Assembly (NCBI GenBank): GCA_947476295.1
Contig: CANJQC010000043.1
Span: 1-38,700, forward strand
Direction: 5' to 3'
DNA from: Planctomycetaceae bacterium
GTDB lineage: Bacteria; Planctomycetota; Planctomycetia; Planctomycetales; Planctomycetaceae
DNA length: 38,700 nt
Positions 26,992 to 35,558 of this stretch are shown here, piece by piece. Under the pieces are notes generated by a model that worked only from the letters and a program-made list of their open reading frames with translations, ran no database searches and had not been told where the DNA came from. Both the position numbers and the translations under genes were made by a program. Every line of letters starts with the position of its first letter. Position 1 is the first letter of the stretch.

Positions 26992-27774
26992 GTGGCGACA
27001 GCAACATTGAATCCTGCGGACGTGGAACGAGTCGTTCGTGACGTTCTCAATCGGCACCTTGCCGCCCGATCCAGTGGTTCACCAGCGAAAAGCTCAAGTG
27101 GTGATATCCCCGTGCTGCGCTCTGCACCGGCACCATCAACGAGCATGTTGAGTCCAACTGTGTCGGCGGGCAAGCGGAATCCTCTGGTTGTCAATATCTC
27201 AGCACGGCATGTGCATTTGACTCAGGAGCACGTCGAGATTCTCTTTGGCAATGGTGCTACGCTAACGCCGGAGAAGGATCTCTATCAGGACGGTTACTTT
27301 GCCGCGAAGGAAACAGTCGCTGTTGTCGGGCCGCGTCGGCGGATGCTGCCAAACGTTCGAGTCCTCGGGCCATGCCGTGAAGATTCACAGGTCGAATTGG
27401 CATTTACGGACGGCATTTCCCTGGGGATCGATTTACCAGTACGAGTCAGCGGCAACGTCAAGGGAACACCCGGTTGCGTTCTGATGGGGCCGCATGGGGT
27501 CGTCGAGTTGAAACATGGTGTCATCAGAGCGATGCGACACGTTCACATGGGGCCGGATGACCTGACCTACTACGGCGTGGCGAATGGCGATTATGTCCAC
27601 CTGCGAATTGAATCACCCGGATGCACGACGGTCCTTGAAGACCTTGCGGTGCGAGCCGCCAAAGGTATCAAACTGGAAGTCCATCTGGATACCGACGAAG
27701 GCAACGCCTGCAACCTGGAGAACGCATCGAAAGTGGAACTGGTGAAACCGGAACCGTGTCAGTGTAAACACTGA
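26992..27774 (+). CDS. pduL: PduL-type phosphate acyltransferase with encapsulation peptide
   Basis: The protein has 260 aa. GTG at 26992 is chosen because GGAG ends six bases upstream; TTG 26980 is the alternative. Residues about 6-25 ([18 protein letters not shown]) form an amphipathic helix typical of encapsulation peptides. A Ser/Pro-rich linker follows. The catalytic barrel contains two metal motifs: I-S-A-R-H-V-H-L-T (about 68-76) and A-M-R-H-V-H-M-G-P. PduL moves acyl groups from CoA to phosphate; here the expected step is lactyl-CoA to lactyl-phosphate, regenerating CoA in the lumen. The C-terminus ends C-Q-C-K-H, an unusual paired-cysteine tail. Length and helix fit other BMC PduL proteins. 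Confidence 0.93.
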
Positions 27775-30064: not shown

Positions 30065-30376
30065 ATGTTCTTGGCACGCATTACCGGCAGCCTTGTAGCA
30101 ACTCAGAAAGTTGAGTCGCTCGTGGGCCAAAAACTGTTGCTCGTTGAACCACTGCGAGTCGATGAAAAAGATCAGAAGAGTCTGAAGCCAACCGGCCGGT
30201 CGTTTGTGGTGGTCGATACGGTCGGAGCGGGTGAAGGCGACATCGTTCTGTGCGTTCAGGGCTCCAGTGCTCGGTTGACGCCGGGGACCAAGGAACTTCC
30301 GATCGATGCCGCGATCATCGGGATAGTGGACACGGTGCAGGTGAAACAAAAGACGGTGTTTAAGGCGGGTGAATAG
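30065..30376 (+). CDS. BMC-P (EutN/CcmL) pentamer vertex protein 1
   Basis: The protein has 103 aa. [15 protein letters not shown]…[11 protein letters not shown] is the EutN/CcmL (Pfam03319) start, followed by [23 protein letters not shown] and [11 protein letters not shown]. It forms pentamers that close the icosahedral vertices. It is the most canonical of the three BMC-P proteins here. Confidence 0.95.
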
Positions 30377-30487: not shown

Positions 30488-30671
30488 AGGCAACAGTATG
30501 CGACACGGAGTTGTCGCGAGACAAAGAGATTTCAATCGTGCAGGCGACAGCAAACGAACAGACGATCCGGAATATCGTGCAGGAAGTTCTGACTCAGCTC
30601 ACCAGCCGCAATGGTACCGCGACGAAGGTGAACGGCTCAGCAGGTCCGGACACTCGATGGGGCGTTTTTAA
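30488..30671 (+). other. Short overlapping ORF with a perfect ribosome site
   Basis: GGGAGG lies seven bases before ATG 30498, but that ATG opens a 57-codon frame ([12 protein letters not shown]…) out of phase with the aldehyde dehydrogenase, overlapping its start. It may be a leader peptide, a chance ORF, or a sign of a frameshift in the dehydrogenase N-terminus. Confidence 0.3.
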
Positions 30672-32187: not shown

Positions 32188-32198
32188 TGTGGGCCTAT

Positions 32199-32221
32199 GG
32201 CCCGAAACTCAGTTTCGGGCC
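32199..32221 (+). repeat. Perfect hairpin before BMC-P2
   Basis: GGCCCGAAAC/GTTTCGGGCC forms a 10-bp stem with a 3-nt loop. It ends 20 bases before the GTG start of BMC-P2 and could modulate its translation or protect the 3' mRNA segment. Confidence 0.7.
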
Positions 32222-32241
32222 TGAACACCGAAAACTCTCCC

Positions 32242-32529
32242 GTGCAAACAGCAAGAATAATCGGACATGCGACAGCGACGCTCAAGCATTCATCTTTAAA
32301 CGGATGGAAGCTGGTGGTGTTGCAGCCTCTGGACATCAACAACGAACCGGATGAGTTTCCACAGTTAGCCATTGATCCTTTGGGGGCTCGCCAGGGCGAT
32401 CATGTCTTCTTTACAAGTGATACGAAATACATTCAGGAATTAACCAGCCGAAAGGATTCGCCGATTCGTTTTTCGGTGCAGGGGATCCTGGATCAACAAC
32501 CGAAGCCAGTGAAGAAACGTGGAAAATAG
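32242..32529 (+). CDS. BMC-P (EutN/CcmL) pentamer vertex protein 2
   Basis: The protein has 95 aa from GTG 32242; the in-frame ATG at 32197 lies inside the hairpin region and adds non-family residues. Q-T-A-R-I-I-G-H-A-T-A-T-L-K-H-S-S-L-N-G-W-K-L-V-V-L-Q-P-L-D is the EutN pattern, followed by I-D-P-L-G-A-R-Q-G-D-H-V-F-F-T-S-D-T and S-V-Q-G-I-L-D. The tail is basic (KPVKKRGK). The aspartate/threonine-rich loop differs from BMC-P1, so mixed vertices are possible. Confidence 0.93.
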   Translation: MQTARIIGHATATLKHSSLNGWKLVVLQPLDINNEPDEFPQLAIDPLGARQGDHVFFTSDTKYIQELTSRKDSPIRFSVQGILDQQPKPVKKRGK

Positions 32530-32598: not shown

Positions 32599-33288
32599 AT
32601 GACCATCAGCGTACAATTTATTGATCAGATCGTCCAGAACGTCATGCGGGAAATGCAAACCCGCGTGCCGACGTTCGCAGCCGCCACACCGACGGTGATG
32701 AAGAAAGCGGCGGAATCAACAACGGAGTCGGTCCAGATTAGCAGCCGAGTTGTCAGTGAAACCGTGCTCATCACCGCCAACGCGGCAGGGCGCGCAATCT
32801 CGCTGCAGCCCGGAGCTGTGGTAACTCCGTCCGGTCGTGAATTTATTCGCAAGAATAACGTGCGGATGACAAGTCAGGTCAGCGGCAAGAGTTCATCTTC
32901 CATCGTCGGAACCTTCATCGTCATCGGCTCAAACACAGCAGTTCATACCGCCGCTTCGGCAGCAGGCTGGAAGACGATCGCAGCATCGACAGAATCTGAA
33001 GCCGCAACTCTCAGCCTCGCAAATCTGTCGCACAGCATCGTCGCCTGCTGCGGCGGTGAACCGTCGGTTGTGGCTTGTTTGCTGAATCGAGACTCGGCCG
33101 TGCGAGCTGCCGTAATTTCTCGCGCGACAAATCTGGTAACACTGACCACCGTGATGAGTCCTCAGGTTGTTTGCTTGGAATCATCCGGCTGGTCTTTCGG
33201 TGACATTCTGCGTCTGCTGCGGTCACTCGCGACACCGTCCGGTGCACCGGCTTACTGGAAAGAAATTTCCACAGGAAGCACACGATGA
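32599..33288 (+). CDS. Uncharacterised BMC protein, putative encapsulated cargo
   Basis: The protein has 229 aa. Residues 4-21 (S-V-Q-F-I-D-Q-I-V-Q-N-V-M-R-E-M-Q) form an amphipathic helix like the encapsulation peptides of PduL and the aldehyde dehydrogenase in this operon. After a linker, residues about 50-92 (V-L-I-T-A-N-A-A-G…G-A-V-V-T-P-S-G-R-E-F-I-R-K-N-N-V) match a short motif I recall from several BMC accessory proteins (…VTPxARD…). Residues about 100-220 contain I-V-A-C-C-G-G-E-P-S-V-V-A-C-L-L-N-R-D-S-A-V-R-A-A and later V-V-C-L-E-S-S-G, which loosely parallels the RpiB/LacAB pattern (CGTGxGxxxAANKxxGIRAA…VLCLG). So it may be a diverged isomerase-like fold. Its stop overlaps the next start (ATGA), so it is coupled to BMC-P3. 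Function unknown. Confidence 0.75.
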   Translation: MTISVQFIDQIVQNVMREMQTRVPTFAAATPTVMKKAAESTTESVQISSRVVSETVLITANAAGRAISLQPGAVVTPSGREFIRKNNVRMTSQVSGKSSSSIVGTFIVIGSNTAVHTAASAAGWKTIAASTESEAATLSLANLSHSIVACCGGEPSVVACLLNRDSAVRAAVISRATNLVTLTTVMSPQVVCLESSGWSFGDILRLLRSLATPSGAPAYWKEISTGSTR

Positions 33289-33566
33289 GAATCATGGAAT
33301 GCATCGGATTGGTAACGTTGTCTCATTGGACTCCCTCACTCAAAGGCGCGAGCTGGAAGCTGGCGGTTCCCTTGATGCACACGGGTTTGAATGGTGATGA
33401 ATCCGGACGGACGGAGCCGGTTATTGTTTACGATGACATGGGAGCGGGCATCGGTAGTTTGATGGCGGTGACAGAAAGTGCCGACGCATCGACTCCGTTT
33501 TATCCGAATTCAAAACCCATCGATGCATACAACGCCGCGATACTGGATACGGTGAGTGTTGAATAA
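33285..33566 (+). CDS. BMC-P (EutN/CcmL) pentamer vertex protein 3
   Basis: The protein has 93 aa. M-R-I-M-E-C-I-G-L-V-T-L-S-H-W-T-P-S-L-K-G-A-S-W-K-L-A-V-P is a divergent EutN start, then V-I-V-Y-D-D-M-G-A-G-I-G-S-L-M-A-V-T-E-S-A-D-A-S and P-I-D-A-Y-N-A-A-I-L-D-T-V. The insertion SHWTPSLKGASW is longer than in BMC-P1. Its ATG overlaps the stop of the unknown cargo gene (ATGA). Three different BMC-P genes and no BMC-T match the PVM-type locus. Confidence 0.92.
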   Translation: MRIMECIGLVTLSHWTPSLKGASWKLAVPLMHTGLNGDESGRTEPVIVYDDMGAGIGSLMAVTESADASTPFYPNSKPIDAYNAAILDTVSVE

Positions 33567-33663: not shown

Positions 33664-34554
33664 ATGGCAAACAAATGGAACAGCGGCATTAACGATCGAG
33701 GACTCAAAGAAGAGATCTGCGAGATCGGCCGACGTGTCTACAACAAGGGTTTCGCAGCCGCCAACGATGGCAACATCAGTATTCGAGTCGGTGAAAACGA
33801 AGTTCTGTGTACGCCGACAATGATTTGCAAAGGCTTTATGAAGCCCGAAGACATCTGTGCGGTTGACATGGAAGGCAAGCAAATCGCCGGCGTCCGCAAG
33901 CGGACGAGCGAAGTCCTGCTGCACCTGGCAATCATGAAACATCGCCCGGACGTTAAGGCTGTGGTTCACTGCCATCCCCCTCATGCGACCGCATTTGCAG
34001 TCGCCGGCGAACCGATTCCGCAGTGCATCCTGCCGGAAGTGGAAGTTTTCATGGGGGAAGTGCCAATTGCTCCTTATGAGACTCCCGGCGACGAGCGATT
34101 CGCGCAGACCGTTGTTCCGTTTCTGAAAGCAACGAATACGATCATCCTGAAGAACCACGGTACGGTTTCATTCGGTAAGGACTTGCAGGATGCATACTGG
34201 AAGACAGAGATTCTTGACGCTTACTGCCGCATTCTTCTGTTAGCCAAGCAGATTGGTCAGCCGCAATATCTCAACGAACAGAAAAGCCGCGAGTTGCTCG
34301 ACCTCAAAAAGAAATGGGGCTTCGACGATCCTCGCTTCCACAACGAAGACTGCGACCTCTGCGGCAACAGTGCATTCCGCGAAGGCTACAAAGAAAACAT
34401 TCCCGTTCAGCGCGCCTTCGACAAGGCTCCTGAGTATCCCGGCATTCTGCAAAAGCCCTGTGGCGAAGCGTGCGACACGAAGCCAGCGAATGTTAACGAA
34501 GACCTAGTGAAGGTGATTACGAATCAGGTGTTGGCGGCGCTGGGAAAAGCATAA
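33664..34554 (+). CDS. Class II aldolase (fuculose/rhamnulose-1-phosphate type), C-terminal encapsulation peptide
   Basis: The protein has 296 aa. The aldolase/adducin domain spans residues 12-210. G-N-I-S-I-R near 36-41 is the phosphate loop, E83 in T-S-E-V-L-L-H is the expected acid/base, and Zn ligands are H102 and H104 in V-H-C-H-P-P-H and H165 in K-N-H-G-T. The extra 85 residues include a C-D-L-C-G motif. The protein ends N-E-D-L-V-K-V-I-T-N-Q-V-L-A-A-L-G-K-A, an amphipathic helix of encapsulation type. In the characterised Planctopirus compartment the homologue cleaves fuculose-1-P and rhamnulose-1-P to DHAP plus lactaldehyde. It is thus the enzyme that generates the toxic aldehyde inside the shell. 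Confidence 0.94.
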   Translation: MANKWNSGINDRGLKEEICEIGRRVYNKGFAAANDGNISIRVGENEVLCTPTMICKGFMKPEDICAVDMEGKQIAGVRKRTSEVLLHLAIMKHRPDVKAVVHCHPPHATAFAVAGEPIPQCILPEVEVFMGEVPIAPYETPGDERFAQTVVPFLKATNTIILKNHGTVSFGKDLQDAYWKTEILDAYCRILLLAKQIGQPQYLNEQKSRELLDLKKKWGFDDPRFHNEDCDLCGNSAFREGYKENIPVQRAFDKAPEYPGILQKPCGEACDTKPANVNEDLVKVITNQVLAALGKA

Positions 34555-34758: not shown

Positions 34759-34787
34759 AAGGACTCCCTCGATTGAAGGAGAATGAT

Positions 34788-35558
34788 ATGCCGATACATG
34801 ACTGGACAAAGATCTTCGATGGTGCGTTTCACCATTTTCATCAGACTTGGGTTGTAGCAATCTCAAGAACACTGAACGCTGGGTTGCTTCCAGACGGCTA
34901 CTACGCCGCCGCAGAGCAAGTCGTCGGAGGACCAAACGCGGATGTTGTGACACTCGATGCATGGCAGCCGGTTGACGAAAACGGACAAGGTGAACGGTTA
35001 CCGGATTCTATGTCGGGCGGAGTTGCCCTTGCCGACCATCCTCCAAAGGTCAAATATCAGTTTGAAACGGATCGACGTCACTACGCGGGCAAAGCAGATC
35101 ATATTGCGCTGAAACATGTCAGCAGCCATCGATTAATCGCAGTCATCGAAATCATTTCCCCCGGCAACAAGAACAATAACCGCGCGTTAGAGAGTCTTCG
35201 TAAGAAGGTGAACATTTTGCTTGATGAAGGAGTTCATTTGTTGTTGGTCGATATTCTTCCTCCGGGACCTGTCGATCCGCAAGGGTTACCGCTGGCTCTC
35301 TCTATCACTGATCAGTCTGAGGTTCCGAGTGCGACCGAAGCCGAGCCGTTTACGCTGTTTTCGGTTCGATGTGCGGAGGCGGGAGATATTCTCAGTGGAT
35401 TTGTTGAATTGGTTTCTCGTGAGCAGACTCTTCCGGACATGCCATTGTTTATGAACGAAGAGCGTTACATCTCGGTCCCGTTGGAATCGACATATCAGGA
35501 TGCGTGGCGCGATGTGCCAGCACCGTGGAAGAAGATGATCGAATCAAAGTCGGCGTGA
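34788..35558 (+). CDS. DUF4058 family protein inserted in the BMC operon
   Basis: The protein has 256 aa; ATG 34788 is preferred because AAGGAG lies six bases upstream (TTG 34773 is the alternative). M-P-I-H-D-W-T-K…G-A-F-H-H-F-H-Q-T-W is the DUF4058 start. The core I-A-V-I-E-I-I-S-P-G-N-K (about 110-121) has the E-x-x-S-P-x-N-K pattern resembling PD-(D/E)xK nuclease-like active sites. DUF4058 is frequent in planctomycetes and cyanobacteria; its function is unknown. It is not a known part of BMC loci. It is preceded by a MITE-like element and its own extended -10 box, and probably entered the operon as a passenger. Confidence 0.88.
   Translation: MPIHDWTKIFDGAFHHFHQTWVVAISRTLNAGLLPDGYYAAAEQVVGGPNADVVTLDAWQPVDENGQGERLPDSMSGGVALADHPPKVKYQFETDRRHYAGKADHIALKHVSSHRLIAVIEIISPGNKNNNRALESLRKKVNILLDEGVHLLLVDILPPGPVDPQGLPLALSITDQSEVPSATEAEPFTLFSVRCAEAGDILSGFVELVSREQTLPDMPLFMNEERYISVPLESTYQDAWRDVPAPWKKMIESKSA

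Follow-up and report, generated by a model that had tools for sequence, protein, structure and literature searches.

An isomerase-derived protein that probably ties the enzymes of PVM microcompartments to their shell

A planctomycete locus for a PVM bacterial microcompartment (BMC) carries, between two genes for vertex proteins (BMC-P), a gene for a protein of 229 residues (P0001) to which no Pfam family could be matched at E ≤ 1. This raises the question of what the protein contributes to the compartment. The window, that is the whole stretch of DNA analysed, comprises 38,700 nucleotides of a Planctomycetaceae bacterium (assembly GCA_947476295.1, contig CANJQC010000043.1, positions 1 to 38,700).

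PVM compartments, encapsulation peptides, linkers between enzymes and shell, and the presence of RpiB in SPU loci are already known, and 285 PVM representatives had been catalogued in 2021 (PMC8217296, available part). Ties between the enzyme core and the shell are known for few compartments, and P0001 gives the PVM type a concrete candidate. It is probably a protein derived from an isomerase which ties the compartment enzymes to the shell via two parts that it has retained.

The PVM locus and the slot between vertex protein genes

The neighbours of P0001 make up a PVM (fucose/rhamnose) microcompartment locus. Upstream start the genes for DeoR (26198), PduL (26980; PF06130, E 1.7e-69), two BMC-H proteins (27839 and 28245), acetate kinase (28746), a first BMC-P (30065), aldehyde dehydrogenase (30415) and a second BMC-P (32197). 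P0001 is followed by a third BMC-P gene (33285), a class II aldolase (33664; PF00596) and an L-lactate/malate dehydrogenase (35604). The vertex protein genes and the gene under study are:

30065..30376 (+), first BMC-P gene of the PVM locus
32197..32529 (+), BMC-P (EutN_CcmL), upstream flank of P0001
32599..33288 (+), P0001, 229 codons, open reading frame devoid of internal stops
33285..33288 (+), ATGA overlap of the P0001 stop with the start of the third vertex protein gene
33285..33566 (+), BMC-P (EutN_CcmL, PF03319, E 5.9e-13), downstream flank of P0001

A DUF4058 protein (PF13267, E 6e-11) is encoded at 34773-35558 (+), between the aldolase and the dehydrogenase. A dehydrogenase also follows soon after the aldolase in several other PVM loci.

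The ATG at 32599 is the earliest start in frame, with a stop codon two codons upstream; further in-frame ATGs occur at codons 16 and 19. The first-pass annotation had described the reading frame as start-stop coupled to a vertex protein gene, and the ATGA overlap, which is preceded by AGGAAG a few bases 5', bears this out. Going by the letter series of the pvm genes, P0001 is probably PvmL: the series reads pvmABDEGHIJKLMNO in the accessible text of PMC11958385, and that of PMC6620236 assigns PvmB (PTAC), PvmG (kinase), PvmJ (aldehyde dehydrogenase) and PvmO (alcohol dehydrogenase).

Among 99 relatives, a search with the single sequence detected homologues of P0001 in 59. BMC-P genes occur in 86 of this set, and the other 13 genomes yielded no homologue in that search. 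A search that started from the aldolase was confined to the best 80 of 519 relatives, whose titles are all planctomycetal. Five loci were set aside, four because they are cut by a contig end (L139, L154, L169, L208) and one in which no BMC-P gene was shown (L175). A homologue is present in 74 of the 75 informative PVM loci, L209 being the exception. It is flanked by BMC-P genes on both sides in 72 of these 74 loci (in L203 and L206 the gene is at a contig edge) and in 50 of the 56 loci of the first family set. Two homologues (G200, L046; G045, L047/L219) have no BMC-P gene within 1.5 kb; the BMC-P positions reported are on other contigs in G045 and far off in G200, which may be read as a dispersed PVM locus.

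The gene is missing from seven PVM loci (G061, G063, G066, G068, G072, G082 and L209), the rest of which is present as far as it could be followed, including three BMC-P genes each. The homologues of P0001 are therefore accessory rather than indispensable. Partial copies also occur: in G078 the slot is filled by a protein of 116 residues with the N-terminal helix and the adjoining module only, and in G095 by one with the RpiB-like domain only, so that the two halves can be lost separately.

Where the gene is present, it is under purifying selection. For the whole protein, dN/dS is 0.12-0.22 (five pairs), for the C-terminal domain 0.09-0.29 (four pairs) and for the module 0.05-0.10 (three unsaturated pairs). 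The low values for domain and module indicate that the protein is maintained, and the whole-protein values rule out a decaying pseudogene.

Aldolases that are 98, 77 and 76% identical to that of the window were found in L130, L174 and L183, in records titled Candidatus Kuenenia stuttgartiensis; these record names are probably wrong.

The N-terminal helix and the TPxAR module

P0001 consists of well-supported parts, which are listed here together with the related motifs of other proteins encoded in the locus.

32611..32661 (+), amphipathic helix resembling an encapsulation peptide, residues 5-21, motif at 8-19 (AlphaFold2, motif)
32662..32727 (+), fast-changing linker predicted with low confidence, residues 22-43 (pLDDT, dN)
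32728..32877 (+), TPxAR module, residues 44-93 (alignments; EutT, EutQ and PduM matches; dN/dS)
32905..33234 (+), RpiB-derived domain devoid of the RpiB active site, residues ~103-212
33076..33090 (+), CxxNR signature, residues 160-164 (among PVM copies C160 102/103, N163 103/103, R164 103/103)
27022..27060 (+), encapsulation-peptide motif of PduL, residues 15-27 (regular expression)
30565..30600 (+), encapsulation-peptide motif of aldehyde dehydrogenase, residues 51-62 of the longest open reading frame (the actual start codon might be further downstream)
34507..34542 (+), C-terminal encapsulation-peptide motif of class II aldolase, residues 282-293

The N-terminal helix had been likened in the first-pass annotation to those of PduL and the aldehyde dehydrogenase. 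Both carry the motif, as does the C-terminus of the aldolase, which the annotation had not named. The regular expression did not match AckA, LDH, DeoR or the three BMC-P proteins of the locus; its background is 5 of 114 ORF N-termini and 13 of 834 internal windows of 45 residues. The annotation had made its reading depend on conservation of the helix among PVM homologues, and the helix proved to be conserved: the strict motif occurs in 62 of the 74 homologues from the aldolase-seeded loci, and V12 and V15 are kept in 94 and 100 of 103 PVM copies, respectively. The linker behind it has pLDDT values below 50 at residues 26-30 and 32-40 and a dN of 0.8-1.0, compared to 0.06-0.1 for the helix in the same two pairs. 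P0001 thus shares with other cargo of the locus an amphipathic helix at one terminus that is joined through a disordered linker. When the PDB was searched with the family profile, encapsulation helices and one unrelated ribosomal protein were obtained, and RpiB was not among the matches. The top three, which are weak (E 0.073, 0.096 and 0.29), correspond to known encapsulation peptides, namely the N-terminal ends of EutC (two sequences) and of PduD.

The second part was named the TPxAR module. It is predicted to consist of strands and short helices (mean pLDDT per block 93-97 for residues 51-90 and 81 for 41-50) and has no Pfam family of its own. The first-pass annotation had pointed to a VTPSGREF block. 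This block is found at residues 75-82, with T76 and P77 present in all 103 PVM copies and residue 81 being D in 99 and E in four; what had been missed is that it belongs to a separate module which is common to EutQ, EutT and probably PduM.

The only NCBIfam match of P0001 is a weak one to TIGR02536, an ethanolamine utilization protein of unknown function (E 0.0093, residues 42-90). Neither in Pfam nor in NCBIfam does a EutQ or PduM model match P0001. Among 51 family members, TIGR02536 matches 41 (best E 1.6e-6), the PduM model 10 (best 0.0023) and the EutQ model six (best 6.7e-4). In matches reported with positions, TIGR02536 and PduM end with the shared block, and EutQ begins with it. The last ~45 positions of TIGR02536 correspond to the module in such matches, but P0001 scores 15.6 bits against a cut-off of 152.6, over profile positions 158-204 of 207, and no match outside the module was seen. 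Simple membership of P0001 in the PduM, EutQ or TIGR02536 families is ruled out, as the match is confined to the module.

A module HMM was built devoid of Eut and Pdu rows and compared to 49 proteins from the eut and pdu regions of E. coli. The first three ranks are EutT (23.0 bits, residues 3-45), EutQ (20.7 bits, residues 2-47) and PduM (10.4 bits, best-matched stretch 134-161). The fourth protein has 1.8 bits, 9800 shuffled decoys reach at most 10.3 bits and reversed proteins at most 1.9 bits. On these profile scores, the module is homologous to EutT and EutQ; the PduM match is borderline because it hardly exceeds the best decoy. An earlier HMM made from PVM sequences only missed PduM (-0.2 bits) and placed EutQ merely level with the top decoy (8.3 bits).

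The genomic distribution of the module follows that of vertex proteins. At E ≤ 0.01 it is found in 88 of 294 planctomycete genomes, 82 of which have BMC-P; at E ≤ 1e-4 it is found in 80 of 294, 79 of which have BMC-P, the exception being a genome that is 67% complete. The stricter count leaves out eight weak genomes (E 2e-4 to 1e-2). BMC-P is present in all 56 of the 80 strong-module genomes that had contributed no row to the profile, and 12 of the 94 BMC-P genomes have no module match; the genomes are related, so that these counts are not independent draws. At least 46 of 75 module places are within 3 kb of a BMC-P gene. A further match (L230) is due to chance and was excluded from the module alignments.

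The RpiB-derived C-terminal domain

According to the first-pass annotation, residue spacing in the C-terminal region loosely parallels RpiB/LacAB (PF02502). The resemblance is well beyond chance. In hhalign, the C-terminal domain of the PVM copies against planctomycete RpiB has a score of 43.9 (probability 91.9), whereas controls reach at most 20.4 (200 column shuffles), at most 33.7 (100 block shuffles) and 12.0 (reversed profile). P0001 itself does not reach the gathering cut-off of PF02502. Among the 51 family members, PF02502 matches 21 at E ≤ 1, with values down to 8e-57 in fusions described below.

The predicted structure is RpiB-like, as the annotation had anticipated. Foldseek ranks 3c5y first, followed by 2ppw, 6fxw and 3s5p (TMt up to 0.66; E 1.1e-3 or worse). 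The likeness is not an artefact of RpiB rows in the alignment, since a second model made in the absence of such rows has the same elements and the same top matches. For this model, PDB ranks 1-2 and 24 of the first 50 matches are named ribose-5-phosphate or galactose-6-phosphate isomerases, with E values of 2.7e-3 and worse, none below 0.001. In the Foldseek searches, rank 3 goes to other alpha/beta folds such as KdpE. The relationship of the C-terminal domain to RpiB is thus well supported, and the annotation's suggestion of a diverged sugar-phosphate isomerase fold gains further support from bridging proteins (see below).

The active site is lost. It was scored in an alignment of 103 PVM copies, four fusions with an intact RpiB, four intermediate (MID) proteins and 29 true RpiBs; for the PVM set, identical sequences were removed and 60 of 74 new ones retained. 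The catalytic Asp is found in four and the catalytic His in one of the 103 PVM copies, the pair in none. The Asn of the HND motif occurs in no copy and its His in seven. The loop Cys is present by position in four PVM copies compared to 28 of 29 RpiBs (the fusions have Asp), and the second and third loop Gly (Gly69, Gly71) are absent throughout. The two C-terminal Arg are found in three copies and one copy, respectively, and never together. The positions of the Asp-His pair, HND Asn, loop Gly and C-terminal Arg are kept in all 29 RpiBs and all four fusions. As far as sequence can tell, a working isomerase is ruled out, since no PVM copy keeps the active site. The host genome encodes a separate, ordinary RpiB elsewhere.

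Position 160 is Cys in all four MID proteins, Met in all four intact fusions and Ile in 28 of 29 RpiBs. Because the Cys is shared by PVM and MID proteins and not by the intact ones, it arises alongside the loss of the old site. N163 is invariant in true RpiBs too, in which residue 164 is Lys or Arg; neither position is known to be catalytic there, and the two residues may therefore be structural. Three divergent copies (G079, G085, G097) keep the TP motif and by eye have no CxxNR.

In handling these alignments, L053 was scored as MID even though it is inside a PVM locus (L127). Its start is late, as are those of rows L020 and L027, from which the helix is missing. Profile A2 excludes L058, L059 and L062, and in addition L036, L037, L040 and L049 as copies or near-copies; alignment A3 further excludes L053-L057, L060, L061 and L063. 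Profile A2, with four intact RpiB fusions among its rows, matched 95 of 99 genomes at E ≤ 0.01, including genomes that have no BMC-P; it was not used for distribution because it also matches ordinary RpiB.

Ten bridging proteins from deeper branches of the phylum (L057, L060, L061, L063, L222-L224, L227-L229) carry a complete RpiB, with the motifs (S/A)DH(G/A)G and DG(A/V)G(I/V)G, after the helix and the module; in L222 and L227 the module was identified by eye. Nine of their ten genes are located between BMC-P genes. In L121 and L123, the bridging gene is followed by two BMC-P genes and then by a DeoC-family aldolase (PF01791, E 5.8e-16 and 4.5e-18). In the available part of PMC8217296, SPU loci are defined by the enzyme pair PF01791 and PF02502. 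The SPU-type RpiB thus resembles the PVM copies in its helix, its module and its position between BMC-P genes; the downstream aldolase is of the DeoC family in the two SPU-type loci tested and of class II in PVM. On the grounds of this shared architecture and gene order, the PVM protein may descend from an SPU-type protein in particular. The PVM branch of the C-terminal domain is very long.

Two further slot proteins with BMC-P neighbours (L054 and L055, from G290 and G277) have CTGDYSKF in the linker and a degenerate RpiB domain with CxxNR. They perhaps represent another lineage with an inactivated RpiB.

A proposed link between cargo and shell

The first-pass annotation had left the choice between a lumen enzyme and an assembly factor. 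We favour the latter because the RpiB active site is gone. By analogy to EutQ and PduM, we consider it rather probable that P0001 is a shell-cargo linker of the PVM microcompartment which is built on an inactivated isomerase. The N-terminal helix would join the enzyme core that is built by the encapsulation peptides of PduL, aldehyde dehydrogenase and aldolase. The TPxAR module, beyond the flexible linker, would attach to the shell from the inside. The C-terminal domain, which putatively goes back to the ribose-5-phosphate isomerase B (RpiB) of an SPU-type protein that combined helix, TPxAR module and working RpiB, would be kept as a folded and probably self-associating platform, resulting in a linker with more than one arm. 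In this proposed division of labour, the helix serves the cargo, the module the shell, and the inactive isomerase is the platform.

The comparison with EutQ rests on its dissected segments. According to the available text of PMC12487888, EutQ devoid of residues 9-41 remains with the cargo, EutQ devoid of residues 62-99 remains with the shell, residues 1-99 direct sfGFP to compartments, and EutQ dimerizes via a C-terminal domain that is dispensable for assembly. The shell-associating segment 9-41 is contained in the stretch of EutQ that matches the module (residues 2-47), which makes the module of P0001 homologous to that segment. Both proteins have amphipathic helices, and the C-terminal domain of P0001 would likewise not be required for assembly. 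They differ in this domain, which is a cupin in EutQ (PF06249 in the available text of PMC12487888) and RpiB-like in P0001, and in part order (module, helices and cupin in EutQ; helix, module and RpiB-like domain in P0001). Moreover, acetate kinase activity is reported for EutQ, and eutQ is apart from eutN in E. coli K-12.

PduM (PF15953, TIGR04493) has a known role in joining core and shell: its loss partly splits the two, and it has an N-terminal signal helix (PMC9132943 and PMC12108088, available parts). Like P0001, it combines an N-terminal encapsulation helix with a module-like region, here at the C-terminus, and pduM is directly 5' of a BMC-P gene in E. coli E24377A. PduM is devoid of an RpiB-like domain, and its borderline module match is without the TP proline. 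Another parallel is the defunct second aldehyde dehydrogenase of GRM1 loci, an inactivated enzyme in a BMC locus for which a role as scaffold or regulator was suggested (Axen 2014, PMC4207490); it belongs to another enzyme family, and no such module is mentioned in the available part of that paper.

Several observations count against a linker: the seven PVM loci devoid of the gene, the G095 copy with the RpiB-like domain alone, the failure of EutQ and PduM models to match P0001, the borderline PduM score and the weaker outcome of the PVM-only module HMM, the part order that differs from EutQ, the 12 BMC-P genomes without a module match, and the Foldseek E values of 1.1e-3 or worse.

The best-surviving alternative is that P0001 is an ordinary passenger. 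Helix and module would then import a non-catalytic RpiB-like domain that binds a ligand or regulates, e.g. a sensor of sugar phosphate or lactaldehyde, with no structural role. As the module is also carried by working RpiB, triosephosphate isomerase (TIM) and ACT domains, it is usable as a cargo tag, and the gene is dispensable. We nevertheless regard this as unlikely: the phosphate-binding Arg and His of RpiB are missing, the G078 copy retains helix and module alone, and EutQ and PduM, which have the module (borderline in PduM), are linkers.

Less probable still is a lumen enzyme, i.e. a diverged isomerase or another fucose/rhamnose pathway enzyme whose active site has formed anew around Cys160, Asn163 and Arg164. 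These three residues are nearly or fully invariant in PVM copies, the C-terminal domain is under purifying selection, and G095 retains this domain alone. Against this stand the loss of the catalytic and phosphate-binding positions of RpiB, the possible structural nature of N163 and R164, the three copies that have no CxxNR and the seven loci that have no gene; the pathway as described in the available part of PMC6620236 requires no extra enzyme.

A chaperone or partner of vertex proteins, which would bind pentamers and cap vertices or time their insertion, could explain the slot between BMC-P genes, the translational coupling of P0001 and the position of pduM, but it is very improbable, given that gene adjacency is not binding, that the seven loci devoid of the gene retain three BMC-P genes each, and that the G045 and G200 homologues have no BMC-P gene nearby.

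We thus prefer the linker reading. No paper naming the P0001 protein was among the literature matches listed. Among the papers listed, BMC loci with RpiB are treated in PMC4207490 and PMC8217296. In the parts of the literature available, which did not extend to the PVM founding paper (Erbilgin 2014) or to supplements, nothing says that EutQ, EutT and PduM have a module in common or that an RpiB derivative is encoded in PVM loci; the available text of PMC12487888 mentions neither PduM nor RpiB. If the reading is correct, the series from working RpiB via inactive RpiB and module alone to gene loss would show clearly how an enzyme became a structural component.

The data suggest that one small module may underlie the linkers of Eut, Pdu and PVM compartments and direct other enzymes as well. 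In planctomycetes, it is fused to intact RpiB, triosephosphate isomerase, ACT domains and short unassigned tails, some of them Cys-rich. A broader proposal, for which we see about even chances, is that TPxAR is a general shell-anchoring domain of BMCs, uniting EutQ, EutT, PduM, TIGR02536, SPU-type RpiB and triosephosphate isomerase, ACT-domain proteins and the PVM protein. It would act beside or without encapsulation peptides and position enzymes on the inside of the shell; in PVM, the tethered enzyme would have died and the tether been kept as a dedicated linker. If so, compartment engineering would gain a second targeting tag in TPxAR, one directed to the shell side.

Fusions of an N-terminal TPxAR module to triosephosphate isomerase (PF00121) are complete in L232:501-1394(-), L274:1325-2224(+) and L285:183-1082(-) and partial in L231. 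No encapsulation helix was seen in the three complete fusions. The genomes of L274 and L285 carry BMC-P genes, and none was found in G305 (L232, 67% complete). These fusions suggest a shell-tethered TIM of SPU-type compartments.

The TPxAR module also forms the N-terminus of ACT-domain proteins encoded at L234:1274-1828(-), L268:768-1271(-), L272:795-1370(-) and L284:933-1397(-) and in L059 and L062 (the latter by eye), with vertex genes nearby in L059, L062 and L234. A ligand-sensing BMC component is possible. Short proteins consisting of the module and a Cys-rich tail, which might bind a metal or an iron-sulfur cluster, match no Pfam family and are encoded at L234:1843-2205(-), L235:1673-2014(+) and L269:1065-1373(-).
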